From Rhodospirillaceae bacterium SYSU D60007 (lineage in GTDB: Bacteria > Pseudomonadota > Alphaproteobacteria > Reyranellales > Reyranellaceae): a DNA stretch of 64,000 nt. Below are positions 27,618 through 47,987 of the stretch, piece by piece. How positions within the stretch are numbered: the stretch's first letter is position 1; each line of letters begins with the position of its first letter. The DNA lies in the NCBI GenBank assembly GCA_003574685.1, contig QOCQ01000016.1, forward strand, positions 1 through 64,000, written 5' to 3'. The notes beneath the pieces are model-generated. The model worked only from the letters and a program-made list of their open reading frames with translations, had not been told where the DNA came from and made no database searches. The position numbers and the translations under genes are program-made.

Positions 27618-30308
27618 ATGGCGGACGCAACGCACGCGAGCGACACGCAGCACGTCGACGTGGCGGTGGTGGGAGTCGGTTTCGCCGGCCTCTATCTGCT
27701 CCATCGCCTCCGGCGTGCGGGCTTCTCGGCGGTCGGCCTGGACTCCGCCGACGATGTCGGCGGCACGTGGTACTGGAACCGGTATCCCGGCGCGCGCTGC
27801 GATATCGCGACGACCGACTACAGCTACACCTTCGACCCGGAACTCGAAGACGCCTGGACATGGTCGGAGAAGTACGCGACCCAGCCCGAGATTCTGCGCT
27901 ATCTCGGGTTTGTCGCCGACCGCTATGACCTGCGGCGCGACATCCGGTTCGGCACGACGGTGACTGCCGCACGCTGGCTGGACGACACGCAGCGCTGGCA
28001 CCTGGCAACTAGCAAGGGTCCCGCGGTGTCCTGCCGGTTCTACGTCATGGCCAGCGGCTGCCTCTCGGCCCCCAAGCCGCCGGAGATCAATGGCGTCCGC
28101 GACTTCAAGGGCGCGATCTACTTCACCGGCCGCTGGCCGCATGAGGAGCCCGACCTTGCCGGCAAGCGTGTTGCCGTGATCGGCACAGGATCGTCGGCGG
28201 TGCAGGCCATTCCGCGGATCGCGGAGCGGGCATCGCATCTCACGGTCTTCCAGCGGACACCGAATTTCTCCATGCCCGCACACAATGGGGCGCCACTGGC
28301 CGACCGCGTGGCCCTGCTCGAGAAAGACCGTGCCGGCTTCCGCGAGCAGGCGCGATGGTCGCTGGCCGGCGTGCCATTGCCGCCGGCAACCGAATTCAGT
28401 TGGCAGCTTACCGACGCCCAGCGTCGCGAGCGTTTCGAAAAGGCATGGGCCACCGGCGATCTGGTGGTGATCCTGACCCAGCTCTGGGCCGACCAGGGAA
28501 GCGATATCGATGGCAACAGGCTGGTGGCCGACCTGGTCCGCGAGAAGATTCGCGCCATCGTGAAGGACCCCGAGACGGCCGCGGCGTTGTCGCCGCAGGA
28601 TCACCCGTTCGGGGCCAAGCGGCCCTGTCTCGATACCGGCTATTACGCCACCTACAATCGCCCCAACGTCACGCTGGTCGACCTGCGGCGCGATCCGATC
28701 AGGAGGATCACGGCTTCAGGCATCGTCACCGAAAACAACAGGCACGACGTGGACGTAATCGTCTTCGCGACCGGGTTCGACGCGATGACAGGGGCGCTGC
28801 TTGCAATTCATCCCGTTGCCGGCCGTGGCGGCCTGGCGCTGTCGGATGTCTGGGGCAATGGTCCGCAGACCTATCTCGGCCTGACCGTGGCCGGCTTCCC
28901 CAACCTCTTCATGGTCACCGGTCCGGGCAGCCCGTCGGTGCTCTCGAACATGATCGTGTCGATCGAGCAGCACGTCGACTGGATCGTGGACCGCCTGGTC
29001 GCGATGCGCGATGCCGGCTTCACCGTGATCGAGGCGACGGAGACGGCGCAGGCCGGCTGGGCGCGTCACATGGCGGATTGCGCGATGCTCAGCCTGCACC
29101 GCCTCGCCAACACCTGGTACACGGGCGCCAACGTCCCCGGCAAGGCGCGCGGCGTCATGCCCTACACGGGCGGCGTGGGTCCCTACCGCGGCATCTGCAA
29201 CGAGGTGGTCGCCCGCGGCATGCTGGGCTTCCGGCTCACCGGACCCGATGTCCCCGCGCAATGCAACGACGGCGAGATCGTGCGCCTGCAGCCCGATGTC
29301 CGCCTGGTGCTGGCCGCCCTGGCCGAGATGAACCTGCCGCCGATCGAATCGCTTGGCGCCGAGGGCGCGCGCGACTTTGTCAACCAGTTCAACGCCACGC
29401 GTCCGGCCGGCCGCCCGGTGGGTGAGGTGATCGACGGAACATTGCCCGCAGGCGACGCCTCGCTTCCATACCGATTGTACCGGCCGGCAACACCGGGACC
29501 GCACGCCGTCGTGGTCTATTTCCATGGCGGCGGCTGGGTGCTGGGCAGCCACGAATCGGATGATCCCTTCTGCCGCGATCTCTGCCGGCGCAGCGACATG
29601 ATCATCGTCAGCATCGGCTACCGGCATGCCCCCGAGCACCGCTTCCCCACCGCGGCGGAGGACGGCTACGCGTCCCTGTGCTGGGTCGCCGACCACGTCG
29701 CAGAGCTGGGCGGCCGGCCGGGCCCCGTGGCCGTTGCCGGCTGGAGTGCCGGCGGCAACATCGCGGCCGTCACCTGCCAACTGGCGCGCGATCGTGGCGG
29801 CCCGCCGATCGCGGGCCAGCTCCTGGTCTGCCCGGTCACCGACAGCGATTTCGAACGCCAGTCATATCGCGACAACGCCGAAGGCTATTTCCTCACGCGC
29901 TCGCTGATGCACTGGTTCTGGGACCAGTATTGCGACCCTGCCGATCGCCGCGATCCACGCGTGTCACCGCTGCGCGGCAAGCTCGCCGGCCTGCCGCCGG
30001 CATTCGTCGTCACCTCCGAGTTTGACCCGCTGCGCGATGAGGGCATCGCCTACGCCGAGGCTCTCGCCGCCGCCCGCGTGCCCGTCATGCAATTGCAGGC
30101 CCGCGGCCACTTCCATTCATCGTTCACCATGGTCGACGTTGTGCTCACGGGTGTCGCCGGACGCGTGGAAATGGCCAAAGCCCTGCGCCACTTCGCCGGC
30201 CTGCCGGCGGAGGCAGGCCAGGCCACGCGTGAAGCCGGGCAGGGCCGGCCCTTGCCACCTCGCCCCGCCCCGCAGACAGCCGACCAGGCCGCGGCAGGTT
30301 CCATATAA
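27618..30308 (+). CDS. Fused flavin monooxygenase (Baeyer-Villiger-like) and HSL-type esterase
   Basis: An 896-residue two-domain protein. Residues 1-550 are a class B flavin monooxygenase: FAD motif [15 protein letters not shown], then [18 protein letters not shown], and the NADPH Rossmann motif GTGSSAVQ. The fingerprint FxGxxxHxxxWP is F163, G165, Phe169 in place of His, W173-P174. Residues about 590-880 are a hormone-sensitive-lipase-type esterase: oxyanion HGGGW (about 635), nucleophile Ser710 in GWSAGG, acid in EFDPLRDE, histidine in GHFHSSF. A Baeyer-Villiger step would form an ester that the second domain could cleave, turning a ketone into alcohol plus acid (inference). GAGGGAGGAAACG precedes the ATG. 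The His to Phe change questions the oxygenation chemistry. Confidence 0.9.
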
Positions 30309-30410: not shown

Positions 30411-30550
30411 TACTTTCGATGCCGCGTTTCCTCCCGAATGAAAGGGAGGGGCGGTCGGGCAATCAGGTGTCGCTTGTTCCCTGCGGGGGTGGTGGCCTAG
30501 CTTCTTCCAGCAAGAGGCCGGCGCGTCCGGGATGCCCCGCAGGTCCGTTG

Positions 30551-33500
30551 ATGCAGTGTTCGCAATGCCAGCACGTCAATCCCGCCGGGGCAAAGTTTTG
30601 CCTCGAATGCGGTGCGCCGCTGGCGCGGACCTGCGCGCATTGCGGCCGGCAACTCCCGCCAGCGGCGAAGTTCTGTCCCGAGTGCGGCCAGCCGGCCGCG
30701 GCTGCCGCCTCGCCTTACGGCGCACCCGCCGCGTATACGCCGCGGCGGCTGGCCGAGAAGATCCTGACCTCGAAGGCCGCACTGGAGGGCGAGCGCAAGC
30801 AGGTCACGGTGCTGTTCGCCGACCTGAAAGGCTCGATGGAACTGCTGTCCGACCGCGATCCCGAGGAAGCCCGCGGCCTGCTGGAGCCGGTGATCGAGCG
30901 CATGATGGCGGCCGTGCATCACTTCGAAGGCACTGTCAGCCTGGTGATGGGCGACGGCATCATGGCGATCTTCGGCGCGCCGCTGGCACATGAGGATCAC
31001 GCGGTGCGCGCCTGCTACGCGGCGATGCGCATGCAGGAGCTGGTGCAGGGATACGCGGTCGAGGCCCGCCGTGCGCACGGGGTAAACCTGCAGATCCGCG
31101 TGGGGCTGAACTCCGGCGAGGTCGTGGTCGGCGCCATCGGCAGCGACCTGCACATGGACTACACCGCCGTGGGCCGCACGACTCATCTGGCCTCGCGCAT
31201 GGAGCAGTTCGCCAGCCCCGGCAGCATTCTGGTGACGCGCTCGACACTTGACCTGGCCGAGGGCTTCATCGCCGTGAAGCCCCTGGGGCCGGTGCCCGTC
31301 CGCGGGCTGGCCGAGGCCGTGCAAGTCTACGAGGTCACGGGCCCCGGCCCGGCGCGCACCCGGCTGCAAGCGGCCGCCCGGCGTGGGCTCACGCAGTTCA
31401 CGGGCCGGGAAGCCGAGCTGGCGCAGCTCCACGATGCCCGTCAGCGCGCCACCGCAGGTCACGGCCAGATCGTCGCGGTGAGCGCCGAAGCCGGCATCGG
31501 CAAATCGCGGCTGGTCTACGAGTTCGTGCACGCGCCCGAGCTGCAGGACTGGCTGATCGTCCAGTGCGTTTCCGTTTCCTACGGCAAGTCCACCAGCTAC
31601 CTGCCGGTGATCAACCTGCTGCGCCACTATTTCGATATCAATGCCCGCGATGACCTGCAGACGATCAGCGACAAGGTCATGACCCGGCTGCTCGCGCTGG
31701 ACCGCGGACTGTCTCACGCCGTGCCCGCCGTGCTGGCGCTGCTCGATGTCCCCGTGCGCGACAGCGCCTGGCAGTCGGCAGCCCCCAGCCAGCGCCGCGA
31801 GCAGACGCTGGATGCGCTGCGGCTGCTGGTACTGCGCGAGGCGCGCGAGCGGCCCATCCTGCTGCTCTTCGAGGACCTCCACTGGGCCGACGGCGAAACC
31901 CAGGCCCTGCTCGACAGCCTGGTGGACAGCCTGACCTCGGAAAGGTTGCTGCTGCTGATAACCTGCAGACCCGAGTTTCGACATGGCTGGAGCGACAAGC
32001 CGGCCTGGCGCGAGTTGCGGCTGGACGCGCTGCCGGCCGGCACCACGGAAAAACTCCTGAATGCGTTGCTGGGAGACGATCCCGGCCTGGCGCCGCTCAA
32101 GCAGCGGCTGGCCGGAAACGGCAACCCGTTCTTCCTCGAGGAGACGATCCGCACCCTGGTAGAGACCGGGGCACTCGAGGGCCAGCGCGGCCAGCACCGC
32201 CTGGCCCAGCCGCTTGAGGCTATCCGTATCCCCGCCAGCGTACAGGTGATGCTGGCGGCGCGTATCGACCGGCTGGCGCCCGACGACAAGCGCCTGCTGC
32301 AAACGGCGGCGGTCATCGGCAAGGACGTTCCCTTTACCCTGCTGCAGGCCGTGACCGATCTGCCGAATGAAGGGCTGCGCGAAGCGCTGGACCGGCTGCA
32401 AGCCGCCGAGTTCCTCTACGAAGCCGAACTGTTCCCCGATTTGCGCTACGCGTTCAAGCATGCGCTGACGCATGAGACCGCCTATGCCGGCCTGCTGCAG
32501 GAGCGCCGCCGCGAGCTGCATGCGCGCATCGTCGAGGCCATCGAGACGCTGCATCGCGACCGCCTGGGCGAACAGACGGAATGGCTGGCGCACCACGCGC
32601 TGCGCGGCGAGCTGCGCGAGAAGGCCGTGGCATATCTCCGCCAGGCCGGGCGAAAGGCCGCCGCGCGCTCGGCGCTGCCCGATGCGCGGGTCTGGTTCCG
32701 GCAGGCGATGGAGGTTCTGCAGGCGCTGCCACAGAGCCGCGAAAACCTGGAACAGGCCTTCGACATCCGCATCGACCAGCGGCACCTGCTGGTGCAGCTT
32801 GGCGAGGTGCGCCGCAGCTTCGAGCGCCTGCGCGAAGCCGAGGCGCTGGCGGACCAGCTCGACGACGACCGCCGCCGTGGCCTGGTCCACGCCTTCGCCA
32901 CCAACATCCACTGCCTGCTGGGCAACCTCGACGAGGCGGTGTCGACCGGCACCCGGGCGCTTCAGATTGCCGAGCGCCTTTCGGATCTGCGGTTGCGCAT
33001 CCAGGCCACGTCCTATCTGGAACAGGCCCACTACCATCGCGCCGAATTTGCACGGGCCATCGAGCTTGCCATCGCCAACCTCGCAGCACTGCCGGGCGAC
33101 TGGGTCTATGACAGCCCGGGAAGTGCCACGCCGGCCTTCGTGTTCGACCGGTGCTGGATGGTCATGTGTCTCGCCGAGCTCGGCCGGTTCGCCGAGGCGG
33201 GGCCGCACGAAACCGAGATGCTGCGTCTTGCCGAGCAGACACAACAGGCGACCACCATCAGTCAGGCCCATTTCGCGGCCGGCCGCCGCCATTTGCTGCG
33301 CGGGGACTGGCCCGCGGCGCGCGTGCACTTCGAACGCGGCGCCGCCTCATGCCGCACCGGCAGCATTAACCTGAGCCTGCCCCGGGCTGTTGCTGCGCTC
33401 GCCTGGGTGATGGCCCAGGCCGGCGAAACGGCGGAGGCAGAGAGCCTGGTGCGCGAAGGCGAATCCGTGCTGCAGCACGTCGCGGCGCAGGGCAGCCGTG

Positions 33501-33904
33501 GCCATCTCGGTCTGCCCTACGTCTACCTCGGCCATGCCTGTCTGGCACTGAACCGGCCCGCAGAAGCCCGCGACCTTGCCCAACGCGCGATCGACATTGC
33601 GCCCTCCCACCGCGGCTCGACTGCCTACGCGCTGCACCTGCTGGGCGACATCGCCGCACATCCGGATCGCCTCGACGTGGACGCCGGCGAGGCCAGCTAC
33701 CAGGAGGCGCTGGCACTGGCCGGGTCGCTCGGCATGCGCCCGCTGGTGGCGCGCTGCCATCACGATCTCGGCCGGCTGCACCAGCAGAGCGCAAGGCCTG
33801 AGGAGGCACGCCGGCAGCTCGCAAAAGCGCTGGCTGCCTACCGCGCACTCGACATGCGCTTCTGGCCGGAGCAGGCGCAAGCGGAGATGGACGGGCTGAG
33901 ATGA
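30551..33904 (+). CDS. Zinc-ribbon / class III nucleotide cyclase / AAA-type ATPase / TPR signalling protein
   Basis: A 1117-residue multidomain regulator. Two zinc ribbons come first (CSQC..CLEC and CAHC..CPEC, residues 3-50). The cyclase domain is about 80-260, with metal aspartates Asp91 (LFADLKGS) and Asp135 (MGDGIMAIFG). Next is an NTPase starting FTGREAEL with Walker A AEAGIGKSR (about 314-322) and Walker B-like LLLFEDLHWAD, then TPR-like helices to the C-terminus. In the cyclase motif YTAVGRTTHLASRM the transition-state Asn is His212, a variant I know from rhizobial homologues. Activity therefore needs testing. ATG 30551 directly precedes the first ribbon. Its TGA overlaps the next gene by 4 bases. 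Confidence 0.88.
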   Translation: MQCSQCQHVNPAGAKFCLECGAPLARTCAHCGRQLPPAAKFCPECGQPAAAAASPYGAPAAYTPRRLAEKILTSKAALEGERKQVTVLFADLKGSMELLSDRDPEEARGLLEPVIERMMAAVHHFEGTVSLVMGDGIMAIFGAPLAHEDHAVRACYAAMRMQELVQGYAVEARRAHGVNLQIRVGLNSGEVVVGAIGSDLHMDYTAVGRTTHLASRMEQFASPGSILVTRSTLDLAEGFIAVKPLGPVPVRGLAEAVQVYEVTGPGPARTRLQAAARRGLTQFTGREAELAQLHDARQRATAGHGQIVAVSAEAGIGKSRLVYEFVHAPELQDWLIVQCVSVSYGKSTSYLPVINLLRHYFDINARDDLQTISDKVMTRLLALDRGLSHAVPAVLALLDVPVRDSAWQSAAPSQRREQTLDALRLLVLREARERPILLLFEDLHWADGETQALLDSLVDSLTSERLLLLITCRPEFRHGWSDKPAWRELRLDALPAGTTEKLLNALLGDDPGLAPLKQRLAGNGNPFFLEETIRTLVETGALEGQRGQHRLAQPLEAIRIPASVQVMLAARIDRLAPDDKRLLQTAAVIGKDVPFTLLQAVTDLPNEGLREALDRLQAAEFLYEAELFPDLRYAFKHALTHETAYAGLLQERRRELHARIVEAIETLHRDRLGEQTEWLAHHALRGELREKAVAYLRQAGRKAAARSALPDARVWFRQAMEVLQALPQSRENLEQAFDIRIDQRHLLVQLGEVRRSFERLREAEALADQLDDDRRRGLVHAFATNIHCLLGNLDEAVSTGTRALQIAERLSDLRLRIQATSYLEQAHYHRAEFARAIELAIANLAALPGDWVYDSPGSATPAFVFDRCWMVMCLAELGRFAEAGPHETEMLRLAEQTQQATTISQAHFAAGRRHLLRGDWPAARVHFERGAASCRTGSINLSLPRAVAALAWVMAQAGETAEAESLVREGESVLQHVAAQGSRGHLGLPYVYLGHACLALNRPAEARDLAQRAIDIAPSHRGSTAYALHLLGDIAAHPDRLDVDAGEASYQEALALAGSLGMRPLVARCHHDLGRLHQQSARPEEARRQLAKALAAYRALDMRFWPEQAQAEMDGLR

Positions 33905-34955: not shown

Positions 34956-35083
34956 CCGTCGTCCTGAGCGAAGCGAAGGACCTTGCGGCCGCCCAACCGT
35001 GAACGCTCGCGGCGGTGAATCATCGGCTCTGCCAGTCCTTGTCCGAACCATCGCAAGGTCCTTCGCTTCGCTCAGGACGACGG
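34956..35083. repeat. Palindromic element, family C (GTCCTGAGCGAAGCGAAGGAC)
   Basis: Left arm from 34956 (CCGTCGTCCTGAGCGAAGCG, GAAGGACCTTGCGG) and right arm to 35083 (CGCAAGGTCCTTCGCTTCGC, TCAGGACGACGG) are inverted with about 65 bases between. A second copy is at 46020-46144. Confidence 0.88.
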
Positions 35084-45594: not shown

Positions 45595-46011
45595 ATGCCC
45601 GCGACCCTGCTCGAGCATTACAATGTCTATTGCAAGGATCTGCGCAAGACCGTCGATTTTTACGAGAAGTATGTCGGCCTGCGCAACGGCGACCGCCCGC
45701 CCTTCACCTTCCCCGGCGCCTGGCTTTATGCCGGCGAGCAGGCGGTGCTGCATCTGGTGTCGGAGAGCGGGCGCACCGCGCATGGCAGCGGCGCGATCGA
45801 TCACATCGCGCTGCGCTGCACCGATATCCGGGGCACGCTTGCCTTGCTCAAGAAGGACGGCGTGCCCTTCGAGCTGCGCAAGGTGCCGGCCCGGCCGCTG
45901 CAGCAGGTCTTCGTCCATGATCCCGATGGTATCCAGATCGAGATGAATTTCTGGGACGAGGCGCTGGTCGAGGGCATCTCCGAACAACGCCCCGCCATGG
46001 CGCCCGCCTGA
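45595..46011 (+). CDS. VOC-family (glyoxalase/dioxygenase fold) protein
   Basis: A 138-residue vicinal-oxygen-chelate protein. Metal-type residues appear as His in EHYNVYCKDL, His in AIDHIALRC and Glu in GIQIEMNFW. The pattern is a single beta-alpha-beta-beta-beta pair typical of the glyoxalase I/fosfomycin resistance fold. The substrate is unknown. GGAGCGCTCC precedes the ATG. Confidence 0.85.
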   Translation: MPATLLEHYNVYCKDLRKTVDFYEKYVGLRNGDRPPFTFPGAWLYAGEQAVLHLVSESGRTAHGSGAIDHIALRCTDIRGTLALLKKDGVPFELRKVPARPLQQVFVHDPDGIQIEMNFWDEALVEGISEQRPAMAPA

Positions 46012-46019
46012 ACATTGGG

Positions 46020-46144
46020 CGTCGTCCTGAGCGAAGCGAAGGACCTTGCGGTCGTGCAGCCCGTGACGACGGCCTGGTTGATCACCAGTGCCGGCATTCT
46101 TCGCACGAACCGCCGCAAGGTCCTTCGCTTCGCTCGGGACGACG
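46020..46144. repeat. Palindromic element, family C
   Basis: CGTCGTCCTGAGCGAAGCGA, AGGACCTTGCGG (46020-46051) and CCGCAAGGTCCTTCGCTTCG, CTCGGGACGACG (46113-46144) in inverted orientation. Same family as 34956-35083; fills the gap after the VOC gene. Confidence 0.88.
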
Positions 46145-46179
46145 CAGAACGGCCGGCGGGCTGATGCTACTCTCGCGCC

Positions 46180-47265
46180 ATGCTTGATTCGCCCGCCCTC
46201 GCTGCGCTGTTCCGCAGCCGTGCCGCGTTGCTGGCGCTGCGCGTGCCGTTGTCATGGGTGAATGTCGCCACCGGCGCGCCGATCGTCATCGACGGCCAGA
46301 CGCTGGATGCGCGCACACAATGGCTGCTGACCGTCTTCGAGAAGAGCAAGCGCCCGGAGCTCCACGACCTGCCGCTGCCGGAGGCGCGCCGCCAGTTCGA
46401 CGACTATATCAAGGCGCTATCAGCCTCGTGGCTGCCCATGGGCCTGGGCGATCCGCCGGTCGGCGAGATCATTGACCGTATGATCCCCGGCCCCACCGGC
46501 CCGCTGCCTGTGCGCCTCTACCGGCCGCCCGGCGCCACGGGCGCCAGCCTGCCGGCGATCCTCTTCCTGCACGGCGGAAGCTGGGTGCTGGGCAGCCTCG
46601 ATGCCTATGATCTCGCCTGCCGCTTCCTCGCCTCCGGCACCGGCTGCCTGGTGCTGGCCGCCGACTACCGGCTGGCGCCCGAGCACAAATTCCCCGCCGC
46701 AGTGGACGACAGTCTCGCCGCCTGGCGCTGGCTGGCGGAAAACGCCGCGCACATCGGCGCCCATCCGCGCCGGCTGGTGGTGGCTGGAGACGCCGCCGGC
46801 GGCAATCTTGCCACCGTGATCGCGCAGCAGACGCGCGACGAGGCGGTGCGCCCGGCCCTGCAGTTGCTGGTCTATCCGATCCTCGACCTTGCCATGGATA
46901 CGCGCTCCTATGACCTGTTCGGCGACGGATTCCTGACGACACGTCGCTCGATGGTGTGGAGCCGCGATCTCTATCTTGATGACCTGAACGACATCGACGA
47001 CCCGCGCGTCTCGCCCCTGCGCGCCGACGATCTCGCCGGCCTGCCGCCTGCCCTGATCTTCACCGCCGGCTTCGACATCGTGCGCGACGAGGGTGCGCTC
47101 TACGCCGACAAGCTGCGCGCCGCAGGCGTGCGCGTCGCGTACCGCAATTTCGACAGCCTGATCCACGGCTTCGTCGGCATGCGCGGCGTTCTTCAGGCCG
47201 CGGCCCGCGCGATGGACGACATCGTCGCCGGCCTGCGACACGAGCTCGCGCTGCTGGGTTCATAA
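46180..47265 (+). CDS. HSL-family alpha/beta hydrolase lacking the catalytic serine
   Basis: A 361-residue protein of the hormone-sensitive-lipase esterase family. The oxyanion motif is HGGSW (His131) instead of HGGGW. The nucleophile elbow reads GDAAGG, with Ala205 where Ser is required; the codon GCC is one base from TCC. The acid (AGFDIVRDEG) and histidine (LIHGFVG) are present. The remaining fold (DYRLAPEHKFPAAVDD) is well preserved, so the protein is likely folded but not a standard esterase. It may be a pseudoenzyme, a binding protein, or an enzyme using other chemistry. No strong ribosome site is seen before ATG 46180. Confidence 0.85.
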   Translation: MLDSPALAALFRSRAALLALRVPLSWVNVATGAPIVIDGQTLDARTQWLLTVFEKSKRPELHDLPLPEARRQFDDYIKALSASWLPMGLGDPPVGEIIDRMIPGPTGPLPVRLYRPPGATGASLPAILFLHGGSWVLGSLDAYDLACRFLASGTGCLVLAADYRLAPEHKFPAAVDDSLAAWRWLAENAAHIGAHPRRLVVAGDAAGGNLATVIAQQTRDEAVRPALQLLVYPILDLAMDTRSYDLFGDGFLTTRRSMVWSRDLYLDDLNDIDDPRVSPLRADDLAGLPPALIFTAGFDIVRDEGALYADKLRAAGVRVAYRNFDSLIHGFVGMRGVLQAAARAMDDIVAGLRHELALLGS

Positions 47266-47345: not shown

Positions 47346-47987
47346 ATGAGCACCTCCGACTCCCTCGACGACCGGCCGGAGACGGCCTCCACCGCCGATT
47401 CGCGGCGCGAACGCAAGAAGCAGGAGAACCGCGCCCAACTCCTGGCCGCAGCCCGGGCGGTGTTCGCCGAGATGGGCTTCGGCGCCGCCAGCGTGCGCGA
47501 CATCGTGCGGCGGACTGACCTCGCGACCGGCACATTCTACAACTACTTCACCGACAAGGATGCGATCTTTGCGGCCGTTGTCGGCGAGCTGACGGACGAG
47601 CTGGTGCGGCGGCACCGCAACGGCCGTGCCAGGGCCCGGACAGCCGAGGCGTTCCTGCGCGCGCACTTCTCGGTCTATTTCCATTTTGTTGCGGACGACC
47701 CGGAGCTGCTGGCGCTGGCGCGCAAGAACGTCACCGCCATCCGCACGCTGCTCGACCAGCCTGATGTGCGCACGCTGGCGCGCTGCCTCTACGACGACCT
47801 CAAGAATGCCATGGCGCACGGCACGCTGCCCCAGACGGACGCTGCCCTGCTCGCGGCCGCGCTGTCGGGCGTCGCCTTCGAGGTCTCGGTGCTGATGATC
47901 GCACGCGACCCCGTCGACCCCGACGCCGCCGCCGACTTCGCCGCCCGCCTCATGCTGGGCGGCATCAGGGGCATGGCCACGAAGTAG
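47346..47987 (+). CDS. TetR-family transcriptional regulator
   Basis: A 213-residue repressor-type protein. The DNA-binding domain at about 23-70 reads RAQLLAAARAVFAEMGFGAA, then SVRDIVRRTDLATGTFYNYF, the canonical TetR helix-turn-helix. The C-terminal two thirds are helical ligand-binding. It lies 80 bases after the serine-less HSL gene on the same strand. Its target is unknown. Confidence 0.92.
   Translation: MSTSDSLDDRPETASTADSRRERKKQENRAQLLAAARAVFAEMGFGAASVRDIVRRTDLATGTFYNYFTDKDAIFAAVVGELTDELVRRHRNGRARARTAEAFLRAHFSVYFHFVADDPELLALARKNVTAIRTLLDQPDVRTLARCLYDDLKNAMAHGTLPQTDAALLAAALSGVAFEVSVLMIARDPVDPDAAADFAARLMLGGIRGMATK

Follow-up and report, generated by a model that had tools for sequence, protein, structure and literature searches.

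A lipase-like protein of Vineibacter that lacks its nucleophile serine probably binds a molecule or runs a reaction other than ester cleavage

The window, a stretch of 64,000 nucleotides of DNA, carries at 46180-47265 on the forward strand a gene for a protein with the fold of the hormone-sensitive lipase (HSL) family in which the nucleophile serine is replaced by alanine. The replacement is fixed in the four species of the genus Vineibacter that were compared, and the gene is under purifying selection. This lipase-like protein probably binds a molecule or runs another reaction, and does not cleave esters. Our preferred reading, to which we give a probability of roughly one half, is that it is a genus-specific pseudo-esterase that has kept its fold and pocket and acts as a putative ligand-binding protein, either a sensor or a sequestering protein. 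Members of the HSL family often receive the name esterase on the strength of their domain, which would be a misnomer for the alanine form.

The open reading frame starts with ATG, ends with TAA and has 361 codons. The 361-residue product matches the Pfam domain Abhydrolase_3 over residues 127-332 (234 bits against a cut-off of 25; E 2e-69). An AlphaFold2 model built from 36 related sequences has a mean pLDDT of 91.0 and a pTM of 0.91, with low values at residues 1-10. The closest solved structure to this model is that of the HSL-type esterase Est8 (4ypv; Z 49.6, rmsd 1.2 and 45% identity over 312 residues), and the top rows of the Foldseek and VIA-align comparisons are HSL-type esterases and lipases. 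Homology to the HSL family is certain. With the bacterial members of this family (family IV esterases, PF07859, among them Est8, LAE6/EH1AB1 and EST2) the protein shares the fold, the HGG and DYRLAPE motifs, the GDxAGG context and the Asp and His of the triad. Asp299 lies within the sequence GFDIVRDE and is followed by Ile300 (codons at 47074-47079), and His329 lies in the motif LIHGF (47164-47166). However, the Ser of GxSxG and the complete HGGG that define an HSL serine esterase are both absent. The nucleophile elbow reads GDAAGG from G203, so that residue 205 is Ala (codon GCC, 46792-46794), and the oxyanion motif reads H131-G-G-S134-W in place of HGGGW, with Ser134 (codon AGC, 46579-46581) replacing the third Gly. 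Both substitutions, as well as the retained Asp, His and remaining fold in an open frame of 361 residues, had been reported in a preliminary description of this DNA and are borne out here. The best NCBIfam match is to the LipP1 family of hormone-sensitive lipases (NF058653; residues 47-350), but its score of 324 bits falls below the curated cut-off of 350, so that the protein, which also lacks the Ser, is not placed in LipP1. In the absence of a nucleophile the classical two-step reaction of serine hydrolases cannot run; classical hydrolysis is therefore not expected of this protein, and we infer that this activity has been lost.

Orthologs were found in all four genomes of the genus, which represent four species and were assembled separately; one of them is Vineibacter terrae. 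The genus is of soil type and is placed in NCBI taxonomy under Hyphomicrobiales incertae sedis. The other three proteins are 81-84% identical to that of the window, and all four have GDAAGG with the codon GCC for Ala205, HGGSW, His329 and Asp299, in frames of 360 or 361 open codons. In the family, 69 of 75 genomes have an ortholog at E <= 1e-100, namely the four alanine forms and 65 others, all of which were compared at the DNA level (a partial match in one further genome, G050, is outside the 65). All 65 of these have an elbow Ser together with the Asp and the His, so the alanine proves to be conserved within the genus and confined to it among the family orthologs. The genus proteins are about 52-62% identical to those of the sister genus and the other family members. 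The named relatives compared include Reyranella, Enhydrobacter and Reyranellaceae; with their records counted, there are 77 distinct Ser-carrying ortholog rows, and in every one the elbow Ser is encoded by a TCN codon. One base change, TCC to GCC, would thus have been enough.

The oxyanion motif of the 65 Ser-carrying orthologs is HGGGW in 54, HGGGF in 10 and HGGSW in one (L069). Since L069 combines HGGSW with a normal Ser205, HGGSW is not diagnostic alone, and we rejected it as proof of inactivity. The window species' genome has six other HSL matches, and all of them have the Ser. A wider hunt for further HSL proteins without Ser, made among best matches and not in a random sample, yielded none: Ser was present in 71 of 72 more distant or partial distinct HSL stretches, the 72nd being a fragment that ends short of the elbow. 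A class-wide search for such proteins, likewise among best matches, also yielded none, with Ser in 19/19 stretches (18 new loci).

A maximum-likelihood tree was built by a quick method from 80 ortholog rows, some of them near-identical copies from the same genome, and from 10 outgroup rows with long branches. This tree requires a single change from Ser to Ala at position 205. The Ala rows group together as one clade with an SH-aLRT support of 99, and the Ser-carrying genus g5 branches as its sister (98); with a length of 0.22, the stem of the Ala clade does not exceed the stem of g5 (0.35). The six pairs within the Ala clade have Nei-Gojobori dN/dS values of 0.19-0.26 at dS of 0.37-0.56. Four neighboring genes of the same genomes give 0.10-0.31, and the Ser orthologs give a median of 0.30 (5-95% range 0.12-0.59) over 981 mutually dependent pairs with dS of 0.3-0.65. 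Comparison with both sets gives no indication that constraint on the Ala genes has been relaxed. A nucleophile loss that is fixed in a clade, in a gene under purifying selection, is what is expected of a pseudoenzyme. We set aside the constancy of Ala in the four species as evidence for selection on the alanine itself, since the tree is too short for this.

The columns of the alignment tell where the protein has changed. Across the 76 Ser rows, 71 columns do not vary, and all four Ala genes retain 65 of them. S205A is the sole invariant column with an identical replacement in all four. R153 and D195 are also replaced in all four, by residues that vary, and this may perhaps reflect a lost salt bridge; columns 47, 227 and 349 are each changed in a single Ala species. 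Columns that are at least 97% conserved in the Ser rows and altered in all four Ala genes are G134S, T235L, K318R and P300, the last being Pro in 75/76 Ser rows and Ile, Val or Met in the Ala clade. W229L, A234I and C226A are alterations in this clade at core-strand positions that are less strictly conserved. The change therefore affects the oxyanion loop and the position following the catalytic Asp as well as the nucleophile, along with some repacking. In particular, T235L, A234I, W229L and the replacement of P300 suggest that site and core were remodeled, which is more than being switched off.

Immediately upstream of the gene is a sequence that resembles an extended -10 element, TGCTACTCT (46165-46173, forward strand), 15 nt before the ATG. 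A TGnTA box is found 14-16 nt 5' to an ATG in 57/57 ortholog rows, all four Ala members included; these are the rows with enough upstream sequence, those without flanks having been dropped. When 60-nt stretches were compared, TGnTA occurred in 57/57 of those adjoining the start of the match, as against 0-5 of 57 at 15 control offsets, and the control maximum of 5 came from a stretch that overlaps the match-start stretch. The box looks like the extended -10 of a leaderless transcript that is conserved across the family. Just upstream of it in the window species is a dispersed inverted repeat (46019-46051 and 46113-46145), with 33-nt arms that are 97% complementary and separated by 61 nt. Another copy lies at about 34966-35073, and the 5.3-Mb genome contains 47 occurrences of the repeat's 20-base core, as compared with 0 of a control pattern.

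The preliminary description had also placed a TetR gene next on the same strand, and we find it at 47346-47987 (Pfam TetR_N). All four members of the genus have the same gene order: a glyoxalase/dioxygenase-superfamily protein (Pfam; 45595-46011, forward strand, in the window), the Ala-form gene, the TetR-family regulator and, on the opposite strand, an FAA hydrolase (Pfam). With the box and the gene order kept as well as the conserved columns, with Ala fixed in four species and with dN/dS of about 0.2, the earlier proposal that the fold is selected without its nucleophile is supported. The regulator is linked to the esterase-like gene across the family. It lies 3' to the gene and on the same strand in 35/35 Ser-carrying loci with flanks, the other 30 of the 65 being sequences without flanks and so outside this count. 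The distance from the gene to the TetR match is within 90 nt in 34 of these loci and 1377 nt in one (L019). Among ten longer loci from outside the genus (L187-L192, L093, L095, L099 and L112), some on contigs that end early, the glyoxalase-like gene and the FAA hydrolase are each present in 7. At the five non-genus junctions inspected, the gene and the TetR gene either overlap or are separated by no more than about 20 nt, as compared with gaps of 80, 93, 104 and 957 nt in the Ala genus, the longest of which contains an extra small gene. Because TetR adjoins the Ser-carrying orthologs too, the linkage arose before the Ser was lost and does not in itself indicate that the Ala form is regulatory; a role argued from the TetR neighbor alone was rejected on this ground.

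Several minor features of these loci were seen. By eye, three of the four Ala members show a promoter-like pair, TTGCC ... CTAAAC, 5' to TetR, and the small gene between the pseudo-esterase and TetR in the TGS_PRO8 genome (L186:2142-3098, reverse strand) has a Cys-rich stretch. In Parvibaculum (L142:1502-3287) a TetR gene whose product is 40% identical to that of the window lies just 5' to a Ser-carrying HSL relative, on the same strand; this relative has HFGG in place of HGGG. Judging from this locus, the association with TetR may not be restricted to the family.

Both substitutions have counterparts among engineered HSL proteins. LAE6 S161A (5jd4) and EstS1 S154A (8ze9) carry Ser-to-Ala, and EST2 G84S (2hm7) carries a Ser in the oxyanion loop, its HGGSWV aligning with the HGGSWV of the window protein; in the window genus, however, the two substitutions are natural and occur together in 4/4 species. 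By their entry titles, two Ser-to-Ala structures contain a ligand: diethylhexyl phthalate in 8ze9 and (S)-Ac-CPA in 4ou4 (S159A). As such proteins (5jd4, 8ze9 and 4ou4) could be crystallized, two of them as ligand complexes, the pocket can withstand removal of the Ser, and that of the Vineibacter protein is presumably intact.

Other precedents come from plants. According to PMC10873640, GID1 and the HID-like proteins, alpha/beta-hydrolase relatives among the class I carboxylesterases, have lost esterase function and are now receptors or other enzymes, so that both outcomes are known in an HSL-like fold: GID1 lost catalysis, and the HIDs and cyclases gained reactions. As described there, GID1 has Ile or Val in place of the triad His and keeps most canonical residues, HIDs have Thr in place of Ser, and the [4+2] cyclases have lost the His and have HGAG in place of HGGG. 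The Vineibacter protein differs from all of these in having Ala for Ser with His and Asp retained; the replaced His that marks a GID1-type receptor is thus not found, His329 being kept and the Ser lost. As PMC10873640 also reports, restoring the Ser in two plant proteins that lacked Ser and His brought no gain of function; those proteins, unlike ours, lacked His as well. In a limited search of open-licence literature, none of the matches listed described a bacterial pseudoenzyme of the HSL family.

We propose that in the ancestor of Vineibacter a LipP1-like HSL esterase, encoded at the TetR-linked locus, would have lost its nucleophile by the single base change from TCC to GCC, and that the third Gly of its oxyanion loop would have been replaced by Ser in the same ancestor. 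Fold, Asp, His, promoter-like box and position in the locus would have been retained, with purifying selection since. Most likely the resulting pseudo-esterase would bind, without cutting it, an ester, lactone or acyl compound of the kind hydrolyzed by the orthologs, which would thereby be sensed, buffered or sequestered; this ligand is perhaps the effector of the neighboring TetR. Ligand binding is the default expectation for a dead enzyme and is not read from the sequence. Weighing against it are the age of the TetR link, which arose before the nucleophile was lost, and the signs of remodeling in site and core. The retained features (fold, HGG, His, Asp, expression signal and gene order) suit a binder and a nucleophile-free enzyme alike. 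If ligand binding is correct, the protein would parallel, in bacteria, the conversion of this fold into the plant gibberellin receptor. The Ala genus, set against its Ser-carrying sister genus and the other orthologs beside the same TetR, constitutes a natural experiment that is testable by single-residue swaps.

After ligand binding we rank other chemistry, a possibility that we hold tentatively, in which His329 and Asp299 would serve as the base and the oxyanion loop would polarize a carbonyl, giving a nucleophile-free lyase, dehydratase or isomerase comparable to some plant HID-like proteins. Retention of both residues in 4/4 exceeds the need of a pure binder and fits a reaction equally well; alteration of the oxyanion loop alongside the elbow and the fixed changes at core and Asp-adjacent positions also speak for it, as does the dehydratase and [4+2] cyclase chemistry gained by plant class I carboxylesterases with altered triads (PMC10873640). 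On the other hand, the compared loci contain no conserved biosynthetic cluster, the partners being the glyoxalase-like, TetR and FAA-hydrolase genes, and the triad changes that PMC10873640 describes in plants are different ones, with no turnover in the clade 1b proteins tested, which lack both Ser and His. A more specific form, in which the site of this bacterial HSL-fold enzyme was rewired for non-esterase chemistry, with the Ser gone from the elbow and a new one in the oxyanion loop beside His and Asp, seems unlikely.

That the protein is still a hydrolase, with Ser134 of HGGSW, or a water activated by His329, standing in for Ser205, is less probable again. Ser134 is fixed jointly with Ala205 in 4/4 and EST2 G84S has the identical residue at the aligned place, its hydroxyl reportedly pointing at the ester substrate, but L069 has HGGSW with an intact Ser205, so a Ser there is no replacement by itself. 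Moreover, EST2 G84S is reported to be an impaired enzyme, with turnover strongly reduced because the hydroxyl hinders the substrate; G84S was not met in the literature on EST2 among the matches listed. When no nucleophile takes part, attack by water generally proceeds much more slowly, which also counts against continued hydrolysis.

It is highly improbable, and already disfavored by the data, that the protein is a functionless relic, decaying or kept only for expression of TetR. The downstream, same-strand TetR gene and the tight non-genus junctions would suit such a relic, but selection on amino acids, seen in the dN/dS, cannot come from polarity, the frames are open with most invariant columns kept in 4/4, and the genes are 80-957 nt apart within the genus. 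A sequencing or assembly error at codon 205, an escape route that the preliminary description had allowed and that a single-base difference between TCC and GCC would make easy, is refuted by the identical codon and HGGSW in 4/4 separate assemblies.

Two other genes of the window were observed. At 27618-30308 (forward strand) is an 896-amino-acid protein that fuses an FAD/NAD(P) flavin-monooxygenase-like half, which we infer to be of the Baeyer-Villiger type, to a C-terminal Abhydrolase_3 esterase that has its Ser (GWSAGG); this protein perhaps oxidizes its substrate to an ester and then cuts the ester in one chain. At 30419-33904 (forward strand) is a 1161-amino-acid regulator-like protein with a double zinc ribbon, an adenylate/guanylate cyclase domain, an AAA ATPase and TPR repeats (Pfam).
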